From Clostridia bacterium (GTDB lineage Bacteria; Bacillota; Clostridia; UBA1381): DNA of 64,000 nucleotides. Below the pieces are notes generated by a model, which was given only the letters and a program-made list of their open reading frames with translations, ran no database searches and was not told where the DNA came from. A program made the translations under genes and the position numbers. The stretch is taken from contig JAFQJD010000005.1 in the NCBI GenBank assembly GCA_017415105.1, positions 1 through 64,000 on the forward strand. The letters run 5' to 3'. How positions within the stretch are numbered: the first letter of the stretch is position 1; every line of letters starts with the position of its first letter. Below are positions 6,195 to 61,541 of this stretch, in pieces.

Positions 6195-6457
6195 GCACAA
6201 AAACGCCACACCTGTGCATTTGCACTTACGGTTGCGGCATCAGAGCAGGTCTTGTGACTTACGCCATATAGAAAATCTTTCCGCATCCTTATGCACTGCC
6301 TTCTCAGTTTCCCAATGACCGGCTTTCACCGACGCACATAAGAACATTTGACGCACACACCGACAGGTATCGCAGGGGATTCTCACCCCATTCCCTTTTC
6401 ACCAACTATGCCCTAAACAGCATAGCCGACACTCTGTGTGATGATATTTAATTTTAT
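6195..6457 (-). promoter_or_regulatory. Cobalamin riboswitch with terminator
   Basis: On the minus strand the leader contains a B12 box, TAAGTCACAAGACCTGCT (complement of 6244-6261), preceded by conserved core segments: AAAGGGAATGGGGTGAGAAT then CCCCTGCGATACC (near 6405-6372), and AAAGCCGG further in. After the B12 box, GCCGCA (near 6238) can pair with TGTGGC (near 6203) around a GTGCAAATGCAC hairpin, followed by a GTTTTTG run. That is consistent with transcription termination when ligand is bound. It fills the 465-base gap upstream of the ECF/SLH operon. The exact 5' edge is uncertain. Confidence 0.88.
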
Positions 6458-16030: not shown

Positions 16031-16522
16031 TTACTTCTTTTTGTTAATCGATGATTTCTTTCCCCAACTACTTATTGTATCAGCACATAAATTAGTCAAA
16101 GGTTCACCTATCGCTGCCTTATAATTAAATCCAAGAAGTTGCATTGTCTTCAGCGTATCAACGCTTATCAAATTCTTTAACGGCTCAAAAGCTGACAAGG
16201 TTTCTTCTTTCTGTGGCGAGAAACCTTTAATAATGTCTAACACAGCAGCAACAGTATTATGCAGATGTTCAATATCTTCATCACTGATTTGAACTTTGTC
16301 TAATTCTTCTTTGTATGCCTGTGCAATCCTAATTGCTTGTTCACGCTCTGAAAGGATTTCATTTATTATTTCATCATAGGTAGCTCTCAATGTGTCCGCA
16401 TTTTTCTCTGCTTTTACAGACTCAATTTTACTGTGAATTGCCGTAACAGTGCCTTTTACAGCTAAAGTTGTCAAATTATTAGCCATTTCAGATAATACAC
16501 TTATCGTTGTTGAATCCATCAT
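16031..16522 (-). CDS. Hypothetical helical protein in the DpnII operon (163 aa)
   Basis: A 163-residue protein starting six bases after the second methyltransferase, with GAGGG as RBS, so very likely co-transcribed with the restriction-modification genes. It is rich in Glu, Lys and Leu and looks alpha-helical, possibly coiled coil between about 25 and 100 (KIESVKAEKNADTLRATYDE and neighbours). No signal peptide, and a strongly basic C-terminus (KKSSINKKK). No family recognised. It might be an accessory to the restriction system, or a passenger. Confidence 0.65.
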   Translation of the reverse strand: MMDSTTISVLSEMANNLTTLAVKGTVTAIHSKIESVKAEKNADTLRATYDEIINEILSEREQAIRIAQAYKEELDKVQISDEDIEHLHNTVAAVLDIIKGFSPQKEETLSAFEPLKNLISVDTLKTMQLLGFNYKAAIGEPLTNLCADTISSWGKKSSINKKK

Positions 16523-16528
16523 TATCCC

Positions 16529-17278
16529 TCACTTTCTAAATACAAACAAATATTCATGTGCTATAAGCAAAAAATTGTATTTCACACTATTTGTTTTCCA
16601 ATATCCCGTTGCTTTACAGTTATGTTGCTCTTTTATAATAAGCTCTTTCAGTTTGAAGCCTGCACCTTCAAAAATACGCATAACATCAAACGACATAGGG
16701 ATCATATGCCCTTTTTGTCTTGTATCCCCCATAAGCACCGCACAGAACTTGTCCTTTTTAAGCACACGATAACTTTCTGTGGCAACTTTTTTCATTTCTT
16801 CAAGAAAATCTTTTACTTTTAATTGTGATAAGTCGTTTTCTATACCATCACTATACTTGATAATATCAGCATAAGGTGGGTGCGTGCATATCAAATCAAT
16901 ACTATCATCGGGTACAAAATCAAGATTTCTTGCATCACCCTTTTTGATATATACTTTCCCCTTTGCACTATCATAATCAAAAGATGTTTTTTCTCTGCAT
17001 CGTTCAAGCGCAACATCGTTCACATCTACACCGATAATATCACGATTCAATAATTTTGCTTCAACAAGAGTAGTGCCACCACCGGCAAATTGATCAAGAA
17101 CTAAATCTCCCTCTTGCGAATATCTTAATATAATGTTTCTCGGTATATAGGGAGACCAATTTCCACGCCATTTTGCATCGTGAGTTGCCCAATCCCCACG
17201 CTTCGGAAAAGACCAATGCGTAGTCATTTCAAGCTCAAAATCATCAGGCTCCCATTTTTTAATTTTCTTTTCAGCCAT
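16529..17278 (-). CDS. Second DNA amino-methyltransferase of the DpnII-type system
   Basis: A 249-residue DNA methyltransferase. The AdoMet motif I is DQFAGGGTT (about residue 62) and the catalytic motif IV is THPPYAD (about residue 131), so the order is I then IV. The X-region SPYIPRNIILRYS precedes motif I. This arrangement fits N4-cytosine or N6-adenine methyltransferases with a TSPPY-like motif. It differs from DpnA, whose DPPY motif comes first. The start codon overlaps the endonuclease stop by one base (TAATG). It presumably protects the same or a related target. Confidence 0.85.
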   Translation of the reverse strand: MAEKKIKKWEPDDFELEMTTHWSFPKRGDWATHDAKWRGNWSPYIPRNIILRYSQEGDLVLDQFAGGGTTLVEAKLLNRDIIGVDVNDVALERCREKTSFDYDSAKGKVYIKKGDARNLDFVPDDSIDLICTHPPYADIIKYSDGIENDLSQLKVKDFLEEMKKVATESYRVLKKDKFCAVLMGDTRQKGHMIPMSFDVMRIFEGAGFKLKELIIKEQHNCKATGYWKTNSVKYNFLLIAHEYLFVFRK

Positions 17279-18141
17279 TATTTGAAAACCTCATTGATTA
17301 TCCCATTTTCTAAATCTTTAATGCTATAAATGTGTTCCATAACATCAAAAGTTTCTTCGAGATTGTTTCTTGCACTTGTCCACCCTTTTCCGTCAGTAAA
17401 CCAAACAAATGTAAATCCGTCTATTGTATCGGTTTCCAAAGCAAGCGTTTTGTAACTACGAGCAGTTTCATTCAGTTTCGAGCCACCGCTGCCATAAAAA
17501 TTCGTTTCAATTCCATATATCATATTGTCTGTTTTTATAACAAAATCAAAACGCTTTTCCATTTTTCCTTGATTTGAAAGTGCTGATAAATCAATGTCCC
17601 ATTTTTCTGTAATCTGATGGATATACATTTCCTTAAAATAAGTTTCGTATTTGATAAATCCCGCCTTTTTAATAAAGCTCTCAACCAAATTTTCCATCAA
17701 ATGACCGCCACGATTTTTTCTGCCATTGGAATCAAGACCTGTTTCAACTCCGGTAGCATAATCAACAAGATTATTTACAATGTGATTAGCCATTAAATCA
17801 AACAATCCTGTTTTACGCATAAACATCTTATATTGTTCAGCAGACAGATTAGGCTTCTTAAATTGGTATGTAAATTCCCCGTCACCGTCAATAGCATAAA
17901 CTTCATTTGCTCTGACCGCTAAAAGTAATGGAATACATTTTAATATTTCGGGATATTTTTCAAGCAGAGCTTCAAATTCAGCTTCAATATTCTTTGAGCC
18001 GATAAGGGAATTTAATATATTAAGTTCCACTTTTATTCCCTCAACATTTCTGTGTACCTTTTCAAAATCAATATAGTAGCCATAATCTGCTATACTATCA
18101 CGAAAACCTGATAGCCAAGTAATAAAATCTCTATTTGCCAT
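17278..18141 (-). CDS. DpnII-family type II restriction endonuclease (GATC)
   Basis: A 287-residue protein closely resembling DpnII (DpnB) of Streptococcus pneumoniae throughout, as I remember that sequence. Shared stretches include the ALNIMNSLIGSKNI-like ELNILNSLIGSKNI, VDYATGVETGLDSNGRKNR, KRFDFVIK and GSKLNETARSYK. The catalytic PD-(D/E)xK-type core is around KRFDFVIKTDN...ETNFYGSGGSK. It should cleave unmethylated GATC. Located between the Dam-type methylase and the second methyltransferase, as in the DpnII operon. Its start is 12 bases after the methylase stop. Confidence 0.93.
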   Translation of the reverse strand: MANRDFITWLSGFRDSIADYGYYIDFEKVHRNVEGIKVELNILNSLIGSKNIEAEFEALLEKYPEILKCIPLLLAVRANEVYAIDGDGEFTYQFKKPNLSAEQYKMFMRKTGLFDLMANHIVNNLVDYATGVETGLDSNGRKNRGGHLMENLVESFIKKAGFIKYETYFKEMYIHQITEKWDIDLSALSNQGKMEKRFDFVIKTDNMIYGIETNFYGSGGSKLNETARSYKTLALETDTIDGFTFVWFTDGKGWTSARNNLEETFDVMEHIYSIKDLENGIINEVFK

Positions 18142-18153
18142 ATTCGTAACTCC

Positions 18154-19224
18154 TTAAAAATTCGATATTAAAAGTTCTTTTATTTTTCCTCTTGATTCGC
18201 TGTTGCAATTTATCATACGGGTAGCTTCAACCCTTTTTATTTTATGTGCAGAGTAGATGTTATCAAAAAAATCATCTTCTGTATTAGAATTTTTGGGATC
18301 TGAATTACTCACAACAATTTTAGCACCTTTTTTGTGCATACTCTCCACAAATTCAGCAAGTTCGATTTGTTCTTCATCATTGAATAGATTTTCCGTATAA
18401 GCTGTAAAACTCGCTGTTTCTGTCAAAGGTCTGTACGGTGGATCGAAATAAACAAAAGTATGCTCGTCTATAAATTCAGCAGACTTTCGATAATCTCCGC
18501 ATACAATCTTTACATTTTGCAGTTTCTCCGATACTGCACGGAGATTTTTTTCATCACATATCAAAGGATTTTTATATGCTCCCATAGGCACATTAAAAAG
18601 TCCTTTTTTATTGACTCTATAAAGCCCATTAAAACAAGTTTTATTAAGGAATATCATCAATGCTGCCTTTTCAATATTTTCAACTTCATTACCATTGACT
18701 TTCAAATCATTAAATCGTTCTCGTTTTGCTATATAATACGATTTTCTATCTTCTGTATCAAGTGGTACATATTCAAGCTGATATTTTTTTAGTAACTTAA
18801 TCAATTCCTCAACATTATCACGGACTATCACATAGGTATTTATGAGTTCGGCATTTATATCACTTATATATATTTCCTCTAAATTGTACTTGCTTAAAAT
18901 ATCAAAAAGCACAGCACCACCACCGACAAAAGGCTCGGCATACTTTGTAATAACACCACTATCAAAAGGATAATATTTTTCAATCTCCTTTAATAATTGC
19001 CCTTTACCGCCTGCCCATTTCAAGAAAGGTTTTACACACTTTTCGTCAGTAATATTATATCTTGTGCTTCGTGCATCAATAGGTTTTTCTGCATCTGTCG
19101 GTATAATCCACATATTACCCAACATTTGAACATTTGCTATTCTATTTTCAGAACAAAGAACAGCCACTCGTCTTTGGGATATACCCCACTTATCAGCGGC
19201 TTCTCTTGCAGACATAACTTCCAT
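18154..19224 (-). CDS. DpnM/Dam-type adenine methyltransferase with N-terminal HTH
   Basis: A 356-residue protein. Residues about 1-52 form a helix-turn-helix/excisionase-like domain (SAREAADKWGISQRRVAVLC, then NMWIIPTDAEKP). Residues about 65-350 are an alpha-class N6-adenine methyltransferase with FLKWAGGKGQLL (motif X), EPFVGGGAVLFDI (motif I) and YFDPPYRPL (motif IV). It should methylate GATC to protect against the adjacent DpnII-type nuclease. AAGGAGCG precedes the ATG. The extra DNA-binding domain is unusual for DpnM itself and may let the methylase regulate its own operon. Confidence 0.92.
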   Translation of the reverse strand: MEVMSAREAADKWGISQRRVAVLCSENRIANVQMLGNMWIIPTDAEKPIDARSTRYNITDEKCVKPFLKWAGGKGQLLKEIEKYYPFDSGVITKYAEPFVGGGAVLFDILSKYNLEEIYISDINAELINTYVIVRDNVEELIKLLKKYQLEYVPLDTEDRKSYYIAKRERFNDLKVNGNEVENIEKAALMIFLNKTCFNGLYRVNKKGLFNVPMGAYKNPLICDEKNLRAVSEKLQNVKIVCGDYRKSAEFIDEHTFVYFDPPYRPLTETASFTAYTENLFNDEEQIELAEFVESMHKKGAKIVVSNSDPKNSNTEDDFFDNIYSAHKIKRVEATRMINCNSESRGKIKELLISNF

Positions 19225-19426: not shown

Positions 19427-19759
19427 TTAAACCATTAGATGTATATCACAAGTGAAACAATCAGTCCGTCCGTGAAGATTACCCAAGTGGTCAAAGCGTA
19501 CCCATTCGCCTTTACATTCCGAGCCACAGTTCGGGCAGGTAAAGGTGTAAGAGCCAATTTTATTTTCAAGTCCTGCCGCTTTTCTTGCTTCGCTGTCAGC
19601 CTTAAAGAAAGCTGCACTTTCTTCAACCGACTTTCTGTATTCGGGGTCGTGTTCCATTTTGTATTCGTGTTCTTTCAAAAAGTCCTCATTGGACTTTCTG
19701 ATTGCTTCTTCATCAAGCACATCTGCCGGTTTTTTCTTTCTTTTCAAAAGTTCAAACAT
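19427..19759 (-). CDS. Small zinc-ribbon protein next to SLOG (110 aa)
   Basis: A 110-residue protein: charged, helical N-terminal two thirds, then a C-terminal zinc-ribbon-like motif TCPNCGSECKGEW with a second cysteine pair near TDCFTCDIHL. The start at 19759 has AAGGAG and overlaps the SLOG gene end by 8 bases, so the two are translated from one message. No family recognised. A role as partner or effector of the SLOG protein is possible by context only. Confidence 0.65.
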   Translation of the reverse strand: MFELLKRKKKPADVLDEEAIRKSNEDFLKEHEYKMEHDPEYRKSVEESAAFFKADSEARKAAGLENKIGSYTFTCPNCGSECKGEWVRFDHLGNLHGRTDCFTCDIHLMV

Positions 19760-20297
19760 TGGTATCACTCCTTGTAAAAATATTTATTATATTGCATTTC
19801 TTTCTTACAGCATAATCATATGCAACAGCAGTTCCGCTTTTGGGTTGATAGTCACATACATCCCTACTGCTGTTCTTACGCCTTGGAGGAAGATAATTCT
19901 CATCGTAATAAAACACGCAGAATTTGCTGTTGTTAATCATTTCCTGATTACGCTCTACATAGGAAGCCCTGCCCGCATTTTTTATATGTTCAGGAAAATA
20001 TGTACTTTCGTAAGCTTTAAACAAGCTATCTTCATACCAATCGGGAATATGGCAAAATGCTGACCTGACATATATTCGCCTTATGTGAGGATATTCTTCC
20101 TTTAACCCCGTAACGGTTTTATGGCACAAATCATCAAATTCACTTTTGCTCCCGAAAAAGAAGGTGTCAACCTTTTCTTTTACAATTAGATTCTCTATGA
20201 TTCCACGCAGATGATTTTTCAATTCCTCCGTTTTATCAATTTTTCGGTGGCCGAAAAAACAACAGCAATGTTGCTTGTTTTCTTTTGACATATTCAT
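19752..20297 (-). CDS. SLOG-domain protein (181 aa) behind a structured leader
   Basis: A 181-residue cytoplasmic protein with a Rossmann-like SLOG fold. It begins with CCCFFGHRKIDKTEEL, the FxGHR signature of DUF1273/SLOG proteins, followed by FFFGSKSEFDDLCHKTV and a late ERNQEMINNSKFCVFYYDE. SLOG domains bind nucleotides or related ligands and occur in DNA-processing and anti-phage contexts. GGAG precedes the ATG. The gene is co-transcribed with the zinc-ribbon gene, next to the DpnII-type island, and is preceded by a 230-base structured RNA with its own terminator. Function unknown. Confidence 0.75.
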   Translation of the reverse strand: MNMSKENKQHCCCFFGHRKIDKTEELKNHLRGIIENLIVKEKVDTFFFGSKSEFDDLCHKTVTGLKEEYPHIRRIYVRSAFCHIPDWYEDSLFKAYESTYFPEHIKNAGRASYVERNQEMINNSKFCVFYYDENYLPPRRKNSSRDVCDYQPKSGTAVAYDYAVRKKCNIINIFTRSDTNV

Positions 20298-20308: not shown

Positions 20309-20536
20309 AAAAAAGTGCGTAGCTCCCTTTTGCAAGAGAAACTACGCACTAAAAAACGCAGTGACTCAAGTTTCAAAAGGTTGCTACACACTTTCAACAT
20401 AACTCAAACTAAATACATTGACCGCAAGAGTATGACGAAACAAGAGTGTACGCTTTTTACAATAGCGTACCTCTTACAGTCTCCAAATATCTAATTTGAT
20501 GATCGCCAATTTATGACAATCGTTGAAAGTTGTAGC
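20309..20536 (-). ncRNA. Structured leader RNA with attenuator upstream of the SLOG gene
   Basis: This fills most of the 388-base gap. On the minus strand GCTACAACTTTCAAC (20536-20522) pairs with GTTGAAAGTGTGTAGC (20398-20383) with a one-base bulge. Inside are a GATTGTC/GGCGATC hairpin, CAAAT/ATTTG, and AAGAG-GTACGC/GCGTAC-a-CTCTT. After the closing stem comes the hairpin CTGCG-(TTTTTTAGTG)-CGTAG. This competes with the terminator AGTGCGTAG...CTACGCACT plus T6 (20350-20309). The RBS follows the T-run at once. A cis-regulatory attenuator or a separate small RNA are both possible. Confidence 0.65.
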
Positions 20537-20542
20537 ATATTT

Positions 20543-20571
20543 ATTATAACACAACCGCTCCGGTTTTACAA
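20543..20571 (-). promoter_or_regulatory. Promoter of the SLOG leader RNA
   Basis: Minus strand TTGTAA (20571-20566), 17-bp spacer, TATAAT (20548-20543). Transcription would start a few bases before the closing stem. Confidence 0.75.
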
Positions 20572-34943: not shown

Positions 34944-35171
34944 TCATATTTCTTCATATAGAATTTTGTCAGGGTCCTCAATTTCAAGTGCCTTACACAT
35001 TAGTATAAATCCAATCAACGGCAATGTATCCTTGCCTTTTTCATATAAATCAATCTGCTCCGCTGTCAGATTTTCGTCTGTCATATCTGCAAGCTGTTCC
35101 AAAGACAAGCCTTTTGAAAGTCTGATTTCCCTGAATATATTGCCTGTTTCTTCTTTTGAACGTTGTTTCAT
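34944..35171 (-). CDS. Small XRE-type helix-turn-helix protein, copy 1 (75 aa)
   Basis: A 75-residue protein with an N-terminal XRE/Cro HTH (NIFREIRLSKGLSLEQLADM) and a conserved C-terminal half, GFILMCKALEIEDPDKILYE. It is paralogous to the protein at 43420-43647: the ending FMCKALEIE(D/N)PD(K/D)ILYEEI is nearly the same. The start at 35171 has GGAGG seven bases away. Its transcript begins about 180 bases upstream and contains a folded leader with a terminator right before the RBS. The role of the protein is unknown; it may bind its own promoter or RNA. Confidence 0.8.
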   Translation of the reverse strand: MKQRSKEETGNIFREIRLSKGLSLEQLADMTDENLTAEQIDLYEKGKDTLPLIGFILMCKALEIEDPDKILYEEI

Positions 35172-35190: not shown

Positions 35191-35350
35191 AAAAATGCGC
35201 CGGACAAACCGACGCATGCAAAACGTCAGCTTGGTCCATGCGACTGGCTTTTTGTTTGCAATGTAACAGAACAAAAAGTACCAAGACTAACATTGTTGCC
35301 AATGATAGTCTGTTACATTGCATTAAAACAATATTCAAGCCAATCGCAAG
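35191..35350 (-). ncRNA. Structured leader RNA with attenuator upstream of XRE copy 1
   Basis: Minus strand. The outer stem GCGATTGGCTT (35347-35337) pairs with AAGCCAGTCGC (35250-35240). The inner stem TCTGTTACATTGC/GCAATGTAACAGA (35258-35270 and 35309-35321) is 13 bp and perfect. The apical hairpin AGACTA-T-CATTG-GCAA-CAATG-T-TAGTCT (35284-35311) has a GNRA loop. Then GACG-(TTTTGCATG)-CGTC can compete with the terminator TGCGTCGG-TTTGT-CCGGCGCA-TTTTT (35216-35191), which ends just before the GGAGG. The architecture is shared with leaders at 43247-43400 and 20309-20536. Confidence 0.7.
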
Positions 35351-35353
35351 TAT

Positions 35354-35382
35354 ATTTTACCACAAGTTGTCCAGTTTGTAAA
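35354..35382 (-). promoter_or_regulatory. Promoter of XRE copy 1
   Basis: Minus strand TTTACA (35382-35377), 17 bp, TAAAAT (35359-35354). A block of about 40 bases from CCTCTTTACAAA to AAAATATACTTGC is almost identical to the promoter at 43212-43240, differing mainly in two dinucleotides in the spacer. Strong conservation suggests a shared regulator site. Confidence 0.75.
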
Positions 35383-43211: not shown

Positions 43212-43240
43212 TTTACAAATCGGACAAACTGTGGTAAAAT
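43212..43240 (+). promoter_or_regulatory. Promoter of XRE copy 2
   Basis: TTTACA (43212-43217), 17 bp, TAAAAT (43235-43240), embedded in the same conserved block as the promoter at 35354-35382. Confidence 0.75.
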
Positions 43241-43246
43241 ATACTT

Positions 43247-43400
43247 GCTACTTAACTAAATATTTCATGTGATAATTGTGTATGTTTGTCTTAGGCAAAA
43301 ACGCAGTTTTCTTTCCTATGCACATTTTCACATGATTGCAGTTAAGTAGCATTAACAGGGAATATGCGTTTTTCATGCGCAGGTTTCCTGCGCATTTTTT
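43247..43400 (+). ncRNA. Structured leader RNA with attenuator upstream of XRE copy 2
   Basis: The closing stem GCTACTTAACT (43247-43257) pairs with AGTTAAGTAGC (43340-43350). Inside, CATGTGA (43266-43272) pairs with TCACATG (43328-43334) and GTGTAT with ATGCAC. Then TGCG-(TTTTTCATG)-CGCA can compete with the terminator ATGCGCAGG-TTT-CCTGCGCAT plus T6 (43375-43400). The GGAGG of the XRE gene follows directly. Sequence differs from copy 1, but the order of elements and the 3' hairpin pair are the same. Confidence 0.7.
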
Positions 43401-43419: not shown

Positions 43420-43647
43420 ATGAAAGCACGACCACGAAAAGAAGCAAGCGAAATGTTTAAAAAAATAAGAAAATCAAAAGGATTTTCTCTTGAAGAACTT
43501 GCAGGAATGACAGGTGGCGAATGTACGGCATCCGACCTTGATTTGTTTGAAAAGGGGGACTGGTCAATATCGGCTGTTGGGTTTATATTTATGTGTAAAG
43601 CACTTGAAATCGAAAACCCGGATGACATATTATATGAAGAAATATGA
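43420..43647 (+). CDS. Small XRE-type helix-turn-helix protein, copy 2 (75 aa)
   Basis: A 75-residue paralogue of the protein at 34944-35171. The HTH is MFKKIRKSKGFSLEELAGM and the second half reads GFIFMCKALEIENPDDILYE. The two proteins share the same length, HTH position and C-terminal segment. GGAGG lies upstream of the ATG at 43420. As with copy 1, promoter, folded leader, terminator and gene come in that order, so the pair probably arose by duplication of the whole unit. No downstream gene in the same transcript is obvious. Confidence 0.8.
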   Translation: MKARPRKEASEMFKKIRKSKGFSLEELAGMTGGECTASDLDLFEKGDWSISAVGFIFMCKALEIENPDDILYEEI

Positions 43648-60658: not shown

Positions 60659-60686
60659 AAGTCATCGCATAATGCAATGACTTTTT
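60657..60686. terminator. Bidirectional terminator between nth and the second SLOG gene
   Basis: AAAAGTCAT, inner GC/GC pairing, ATGACTTTTT. Confidence 0.75.
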
Positions 60687-61176
60687 ATTGCTCTAACACA
60701 TTCCACACACTTATATCTTTTCTTTTTGCATAATCAATCGTATTCTTTGTTCCACTCTTTTGACCGTTGAATACGGCTATTACAAGATTTGACCTATCAA
60801 CCATCCATTCATTTCTCACCTGATAGCAACCCGAATAGTAACAAGAACTAATTTCCCTTACCAAATCTGCATCATTGATTATTTGAATAAATCTTTGCTG
60901 TTCCCAAAAACTTCTTCTTTGTTCAAATTTCGGATGCGGTAAAGCACATATCAAACGGATATCCTTATTTGTTTTTCGCTTTTCAAGAACAATCTCTGCT
61001 GCCCATATATCAACTCCCATTGCCATTCCCGTTATAAATGTAACAAATCCTTTCTCAATCGCCTTGTCGATAGCTTTTTCAAGCAACGGTACAATCTCTT
61101 TTTCCGAATGTTTCATTTTTGACGGTCTGTGTCCCGTAAAACAGCATCTGTGTCTTTTTAATTCCCTCTGATTCAT
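60685..61176 (-). CDS. SLOG-family (DUF1273) protein, second copy (163 aa)
   Basis: A 163-residue protein with the DUF1273/SLOG fold: RCCFTGHRPSKM at the N-terminus, FITGMAMGVDIWAAEIVL in the middle, and SNLVIAVFNGQKSGTKNTI near the end. It is a closer match to YpsA/DUF1273 than the protein at 19752-20297. Cellular role unknown; ligand binding by the Rossmann-like pocket is expected. The start at 61176 follows GGGAGG. It is divergent from an XRE regulator, with an operator-like palindrome over its -35 box, so repression by that regulator is likely. Confidence 0.85.
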   Translation of the reverse strand: MNQRELKRHRCCFTGHRPSKMKHSEKEIVPLLEKAIDKAIEKGFVTFITGMAMGVDIWAAEIVLEKRKTNKDIRLICALPHPKFEQRRSFWEQQRFIQIINDADLVREISSCYYSGCYQVRNEWMVDRSNLVIAVFNGQKSGTKNTIDYAKRKDISVWNVLEQ

Positions 61177-61231
61177 AAATAATTTACCTCCCACGAAAAA
61201 TTGACCATTATCACGGACAATATTTTATTCA

Positions 61232-61271
61232 ATTATAGCATACAATATAGATAGTTACAACCAATATTGGT
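61232..61271 (-). promoter_or_regulatory. SLOG promoter with overlapping palindrome
   Basis: Minus strand TTGTAA (61260-61255), 17 bp, TATAAT (61237-61232). The 12-bp palindrome ACCAATATTGGT (61260-61271) touches the -35. The pair TTGACC (61201-61206) and GGTCAA (61269-61274) bracket the region, suggesting two half-sites for the XRE protein. Confidence 0.6.
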
Positions 61272-61295
61272 CAATTGTTTTGTGGGGTGGCTATT

Positions 61296-61541
61296 ATGAA
61301 TCAGAAATTAAGACGTGATCGCAATATGGGTGATAATTTAAGAAGATTAAGGCTTGAAAAAGATATTTCTCAAGAAAAGCTTTGTGCCGAGCTTCAGCGA
61401 CGTGGTTGTGATATCGGCAGAAGTACGTATGCAAAATATGAAGCAGGCGAGCTCAATATTCGTGTAAGCGTCATTATGGAGTTAAAGAAAATTTACAAGT
61501 GCACTTATGATGATTTTTTTGATGGTCTTGAAACCGAATAA
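61296..61541 (+). CDS. XRE-family helix-turn-helix regulator (81 aa)
   Basis: An 81-residue Cro/XRE-type protein with a clear HTH: NLRRLRLEKDISQEKLCAEL, then STYAKYEAGELNIRV. The rest ends KCTYDDFFDGLETE. GGGGTGG lies before the ATG at 61296. It is divergently transcribed from the second SLOG gene over a 120-base region with a palindrome, so it probably represses that gene. It does not share the C-terminal segment of the paralogous XRE pair at 34944 and 43420 and lacks their RNA leader. Confidence 0.85.
   Translation: MNQKLRRDRNMGDNLRRLRLEKDISQEKLCAELQRRGCDIGRSTYAKYEAGELNIRVSVIMELKKIYKCTYDDFFDGLETE

Follow-up and report, generated by a model that had tools for sequence, protein, structure and literature searches.

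We analysed a window of 64,000 nucleotides, the whole stretch of DNA presented here, which contains a gene for a YpsA-like SLOG protein (19752-20297, minus strand). The match of this protein to Pfam PF06908 scores 25.8 bits, just under the curated cut-off of 27.7. The gene is probably co-transcribed with a 113-aa open reading frame without a Pfam match that lies just behind it on the minus strand (19427-19768). A DpnII-type restriction island is located downstream of the SLOG gene (16031-19224) and is composed of a D12-class adenine methyltransferase, a DpnII endonuclease and an N6/N4 methyltransferase.

The leader region of the SLOG gene occupies 20309-20571 of the minus strand, where we located all of the elements described in an earlier note on this DNA: a promoter, a closing stem, inner hairpins, a CTGCG/CGTAG pairing that competes with a terminator, and a ribosome site. 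The promoter (20571-20543) is a good sigma-70-type promoter, with TTGTAA and TATAAT separated by 17 nt and an extended -10 element (TG before TATAAT), and its placement relative to the closing stem P1 is the same in relatives. The RNA begins near 20536 and forms a folded leader of ~220 bases at the start of the gene. Its predicted fold has an energy of -99.6 kcal/mol vs -62.8 kcal/mol (sd 4.6) for shuffled sequences (z -8.0), and none of the 200 shuffles was as stable.

P1 pairs GCTACAACTTTCAAC (20522-20536) with GTTGAAAGTGTGTAGC (20383-20398), leaving one G unpaired, and its 3' strand carries the class-conserved sequence GTGTGTnGCARCA. This stem holds helix P3, in which 20471-20481 is paired with 20420-20430, and hairpin P4 (20448-20470), GTACGC-TATTGTAAAAA-GCGTAC, with an A-rich loop. 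The strand 3' of P4, ACTCTTGTTTC (20437-20447), is predicted to pair with the strand just 3' of P1, GAAACTTGAGT (20364-20374), and thereby to form a pseudoknot, a feature that is missing from the earlier note. The putative antiterminator, GAGTCACTGCG-TTTTTTAGTG-CGTAGTTTCTC (20336-20367), uses bases common to the pseudoknot and to the intrinsic terminator, GTGCGTAGTTTCTC...GGGAGCTACGCAC-TTTTTT (20309-20349), so that the CTGCG-(TTTTTTAGTG)-CGTAG pairing overlaps the terminator hairpin. The terminator ends in six T residues and is followed by the ribosome site and the ATG.

The leader has no match in Rfam 15 at the gathering score, and the same holds for the related RNAs at 18 loci of relatives. 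Sub-gathering matches of the leader to MIR4208 and ctRNA_p42d were dismissed as chance. The only Rfam 15 match at gathering score in the window is a cobalamin riboswitch (6227-6451, minus strand, 50.4 bits). A leader with a terminator and an antiterminator in a Gram-positive-type organism could in principle be a peptide-coding or tRNA-sensing attenuator, and T-box leaders share with the present RNA both the occurrence in many copies and the competition between antiterminator and terminator. No Rfam scan (window, leader or the 18 loci) yielded a T-box match, however, and where the RNA in the window has an ATG near its 5' end, relatives L063, L067 and L069 have TTG, GTA or CTA. There is thus no start codon common to the members, which argues against a leader peptide, and we consider an attenuator of either kind the least probable of all explanations.

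Leaders of the same type precede SLOG genes in other genera (G049 and G051, plus two copies in G057). What these leaders have in common is the core of P4, the sequence that follows P1 and the terminator module; the spacer helices differ but stay paired. A search with the core pattern revealed seven close copies in six of the 17 genera of the family, some of them not ahead of SLOG genes. From these seven SLOG-type copies we built a covariance model (R1). At E 0.1 it has matches in 46 of the family's 70 genomes and at E 0.01 in 64 of the 95 genomes of the order, and a genome can have as many as 20 copies. A second model, R2, was built from 107 matches and, at E 1e-4, finds the RNA in at least 85 of the 391 class genomes, distributed over 19 families; as the large draws score few candidates per genome, copy numbers and rates are lower bounds, and the E-values of both models are rough. 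With the same small number of scored candidates, R2 matched no genome other than the window's own in a draw of 398 genomes from the phylum. About 230 matches, mostly from metagenome assemblies, were examined, and the RNA family appears to be a large one in Clostridia-like gut and rumen bacteria.

Two further members of the class are found in the window itself. One consists of a promoter, leader RNA and terminator (43212-43400, plus strand) and is followed by a 75-aa XRE gene (43420-43647, plus strand), and the other, with a -10 box, leader RNA and terminator (35191-35359, minus strand), is followed by a paralogous 75-aa XRE gene (34944-35171, minus strand). That these leaders and the SLOG leader are homologous had been suggested from a shared 3' module. 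Terminators alone resemble each other, and R1 gives one XRE leader 22 bits and misses the other, as would be expected if the likeness were merely a chance similarity of terminators and T-run. R2, in contrast, recovers both XRE leaders, neither of which was in its training set, with 46.9 bits (E 3.8e-8) for the 43 kb copy and 38.1 bits (E 3.9e-6) for the 35 kb copy. In addition, the pseudoknot strands of the XRE leaders are complementary (-9.3 and -10.1 kcal/mol, compared to -11.0 kcal/mol in the SLOG leader) although they differ in sequence, and the phylum draw gave no matches in other genomes. A chance likeness is thus highly improbable and the claim of homology holds. An antiterminator that draws on the 3' strand of the pseudoknot and the 5' strand of the terminator is evident in the SLOG leader. 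In the 43 kb XRE leader its energy is weak (-3.7 kcal/mol), and in the 35 kb XRE leader GACG-CGTC can be seen by eye.

To examine the helices of the model, we looked for covariation. In seven sequences, 9 of the 11 pairs of P3 are altered on both sides. Among 105 distinct sequences, both-side changes are found for all 11 pairs of P3, all six pairs of P4 and six of the eight pairs of the terminator; the alignment was fitted to these three helices, and alignments made in this way lean toward the structure of the model. The signal collapses in slid controls, and the same helices provide the top pairs of an unguided covariation scan. Of 107 members, 95 have AAAA in the P4 loop and 105 have TTTT in the loop of the antiterminator. 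A contact between the A-run and the U-run of the two loops is possible.

The pseudoknot and the antiterminator are part of neither covariance model, and we tested both by swapping partner strands between members. With 75 representatives that are less than 75% identical to each other, the native pseudoknot strands pair with -10.9 kcal/mol vs -7.0 kcal/mol for swapped strands (z -13.5). The corresponding z values are -15.9 for the antiterminator, -28 for P1 and +1.4 for a control pair of strands without predicted pairing. A second alignment provided 80 representatives, most of them loci not used before and from other families, along with the three members of the window; the z values were -10.3 (pseudoknot), -13.9 (antiterminator) and +0.8 (control). 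Swap tests of this kind control kinship in part only. When swaps were confined to single genomes, the native partner still beat the swap mean in 30 of 33 cases for the pseudoknot and in 29 of 33 for the antiterminator, so kinship alone does not explain the pairing signal. On average, 77% of the bases in the pseudoknot 3' strand are also part of the antiterminator. Among the members, L097 has a near-perfect pseudoknot. A likeness of the pseudoknot 5' strand to the terminator 5' region (z 3.9) was weak and was set aside.

We also noticed that part of the P1 3' strand (20383-20391, GTGTGTAGC) mimics the terminator 5' strand (GTGCGTAG), so that pairing with the 3' strand of the terminator is conceivable. 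Both strands have the same variable base in 45 of 61 members in one alignment (16 expected) and in only 24 of 46 in another. The mimicry is perhaps a second layer of switching.

Most members have a start codon with a ribosome-site-like sequence behind the terminator, and the median distance from terminator to start codon is 31 nt for 173 non-redundant downstream genes. Behind 36 of 227 matches we saw no evident gene at short distance, and some of these matches lie at contig ends or belong to tandem copies. Tandem copies of the RNA (L213, L216, L231, L153, L154, L133, L104, L097, L121 and L286) mostly have their own TATAAT-like box and their own terminator, indicating that the unit is a promoter-RNA-terminator module; several of the long intervals contain other repeats. 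In L082/L063 (G001:C64), a SLOG-type leader is directly succeeded by another promoter and another leader-like structure, behind which lies a different SLOG-like gene (MKLMIAGSRSI...).

Such self-contained tandem units, together with the copies that have no gene directly behind them, would also suit an independent gene for a non-coding RNA that has a promoter and a terminator of its own, the next gene being read by leak-through only. Nevertheless, an RNA acting by itself would have no use for a conserved antiterminator, the start codons and ribosome-site-like sequences follow closely behind the terminators, and the genes behind the copies are strongly non-random. We therefore regard a stand-alone RNA as improbable.

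By a simple hydropathy rule, 102 of the 173 downstream genes encode a protein with a signal-peptide or membrane-like N terminus, vs 7 of 38 background open reading frames of the window. Among 148 downstream proteins searched against Pfam, we found LRR_5 (33), Cu_amine_oxidN1 (16), SLH (13), YpsA (11; PF06908 at E 1e-3), CHAP (5), MazE/AbrB-type (3), DUF4177 (3) and DUF6809 (2) domains, and the SLOG motif GHR is present in 17 of the 173. As judged from their sequences, most of the genes under control of the RNA code for proteins that are secreted or located at the surface (BspA-type LRR, copper-amine-oxidase-N and SLH proteins), and the others include SLOG, XRE and AbrB-like genes. The earlier note held that one RNA class controls two kinds of gene. 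The SLOG and HTH leaders do belong to one class, but the kinds of gene are far more numerous and mostly of the secreted or surface type. Their variety is too great to indicate a single metabolite.

SLOG homologues that are 50-77% identical to the protein of the window and carry the GHR motif are common. The earlier note had suggested looking for the leader in front of such genes, and the outcome is divided: 5 of 11 close homologues in the family have it and six do not. Several of the leaderless homologues have a divergent XRE or RHH-like gene instead. The window contains a second SLOG gene (60685-61194, minus strand; PF06908, 70.5 bits), which is divergent from an XRE gene (61275-61541, plus strand) and has no such leader. 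The same divergent SLOG/XRE pairing as in 60685-61541 is seen for leaderless homologues such as L005. In L003/L032 and L010, the leaderless SLOG homologue lies behind the end of an integrase-like gene and a palindrome-like repeat, CCACATAATCA...TTATGTGG, a related copy of which is found near the start codon; this arrangement is possibly a mobile cassette.

A role in phage sensing, hinted at in the earlier note, finds no support here. Searches of phages, plasmids and viral contigs with the leader DNA and with the motif found nothing, and a search of viral contigs with the SLOG protein gave no relative. Matches of the pattern TGTAAAAAG...CGTACACT in viral contigs turned out to be protein-coding or unrelated (leader in 0 of 9). 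Defence matches among the downstream genes, as called by PADLOC, are few and scattered.

Taken as a whole, the leader very probably belongs to a large class of cis-acting RNAs that has apparently escaped cataloguing and would act by conditional termination and by mutual exclusion of pseudoknot and antiterminator, with a ligand as the likely trigger. The comparison of members shows that the 3' strand of the pseudoknot doubles as the 5' half of the antiterminator, and the 3' half of the antiterminator as the 5' half of the terminator. As one strand is common to pseudoknot and antiterminator and another to antiterminator and terminator, the members of each pair are mutually exclusive. Stabilisation of the pseudoknot, for which binding of a small ligand to the P1-P4 domain is the most likely cause, would let the terminator form and turn the gene off. 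Without such stabilisation, the antiterminator would form first and polymerase would enter the SLOG gene. We infer this on/off sense of the pseudoknot from the anatomy. The terminator hairpin of the SLOG leader is stronger than the antiterminator (-20.0 vs -13.0 kcal/mol), and the choice between them would thus be made while the RNA is being transcribed. Elsewhere in the class, this switch would act on surface proteins and on XRE or AbrB-like regulators.

The signal for the same architecture could also be a macromolecule, such as an RNA-binding protein, that stabilises one of the conformations in the manner of PyrR, TRAP and LicT. A global regulator would fit the wide variety of downstream genes and the presence of as many as 20 copies in a genome, and the long helices vary in sequence. 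On the other hand, the size of the RNA, its pseudoknot, the conserved A-loop of P4 and the GTGTGTnGCARCA sequence resemble known aptamer domains. We consider a protein signal rather unlikely, and an orphan riboswitch-like class remains the most likely assignment.

Terminator-type riboswitches with pseudoknotted aptamers include the preQ1, SAM-II and c-di-GMP-II classes, and they are closest in kind to the RNA described here. Both have a leader position, a conserved core, a pseudoknot 3' strand that overlaps the expression platform, and exclusion between antiterminator and terminator, but the present class has another fold and sequence and matches no riboswitch family of Rfam 15. The c-di-GMP-I and -II riboswitches often occur in many copies per Clostridia genome and control surface proteins. 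The present class is similar in both respects and differs in its lack of an Rfam match. At E 1e-10, a cut-off that may pass over weaker or degenerate GGDEF domains, no GGDEF protein was detected in the RNA-bearing genomes G000, G045, G036, G063, G110, G167 and G168. The RNA-bearing genomes with no GGDEF match at this level include the window's own, which is 94% complete. Since several RNA-bearing genomes lack a detectable GGDEF protein, c-di-GMP is unlikely as the general signal. Spo0A was also considered and set aside, as it is widespread throughout the class and hence not very informative.

The only published candidate we met with overlapping gene types is the SLH motif, an orphan riboswitch candidate described from Synergistaceae, Clostridia and Negativicutes (Stav et al. 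2019, PMC6429828). According to that description, it too is a leader RNA before genes for S-layer-homology and unknown proteins, with Clostridia among its hosts. SLH genes make up ~60% of its targets and 13 of 148 in the present class; in taxa and gene proportions, the points compared here, the two differ. The part of a 50-genome study (PMC11109978) covered by our search names no such motif. We found no description of the RNA class in the open-access papers searched, a set that is incomplete for large motif surveys, and its absence from the literature is provisional.

A multi-copy RNA that is present in about a fifth of the class genomes sampled and has no Rfam entry would rank as a sizeable candidate for an orphan riboswitch. 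We tentatively propose, at somewhat less than even confidence, that it is a new riboswitch class with a ligand other than c-di-GMP, which would tune much of the secreted and surface proteome, together with small regulators and nucleotide-binding SLOG proteins, in numerous Clostridia-like bacteria of gut and rumen. The combination of BspA-type repeats, S-layer, copper-amine-oxidase-N, CHAP hydrolase, SLOG, XRE and AbrB-like genes suggests that one hidden signal coordinates the cell surface of these gut and rumen bacteria. The SLOG proteins, which may make, bind or degrade the ligand, are a lead to that signal.
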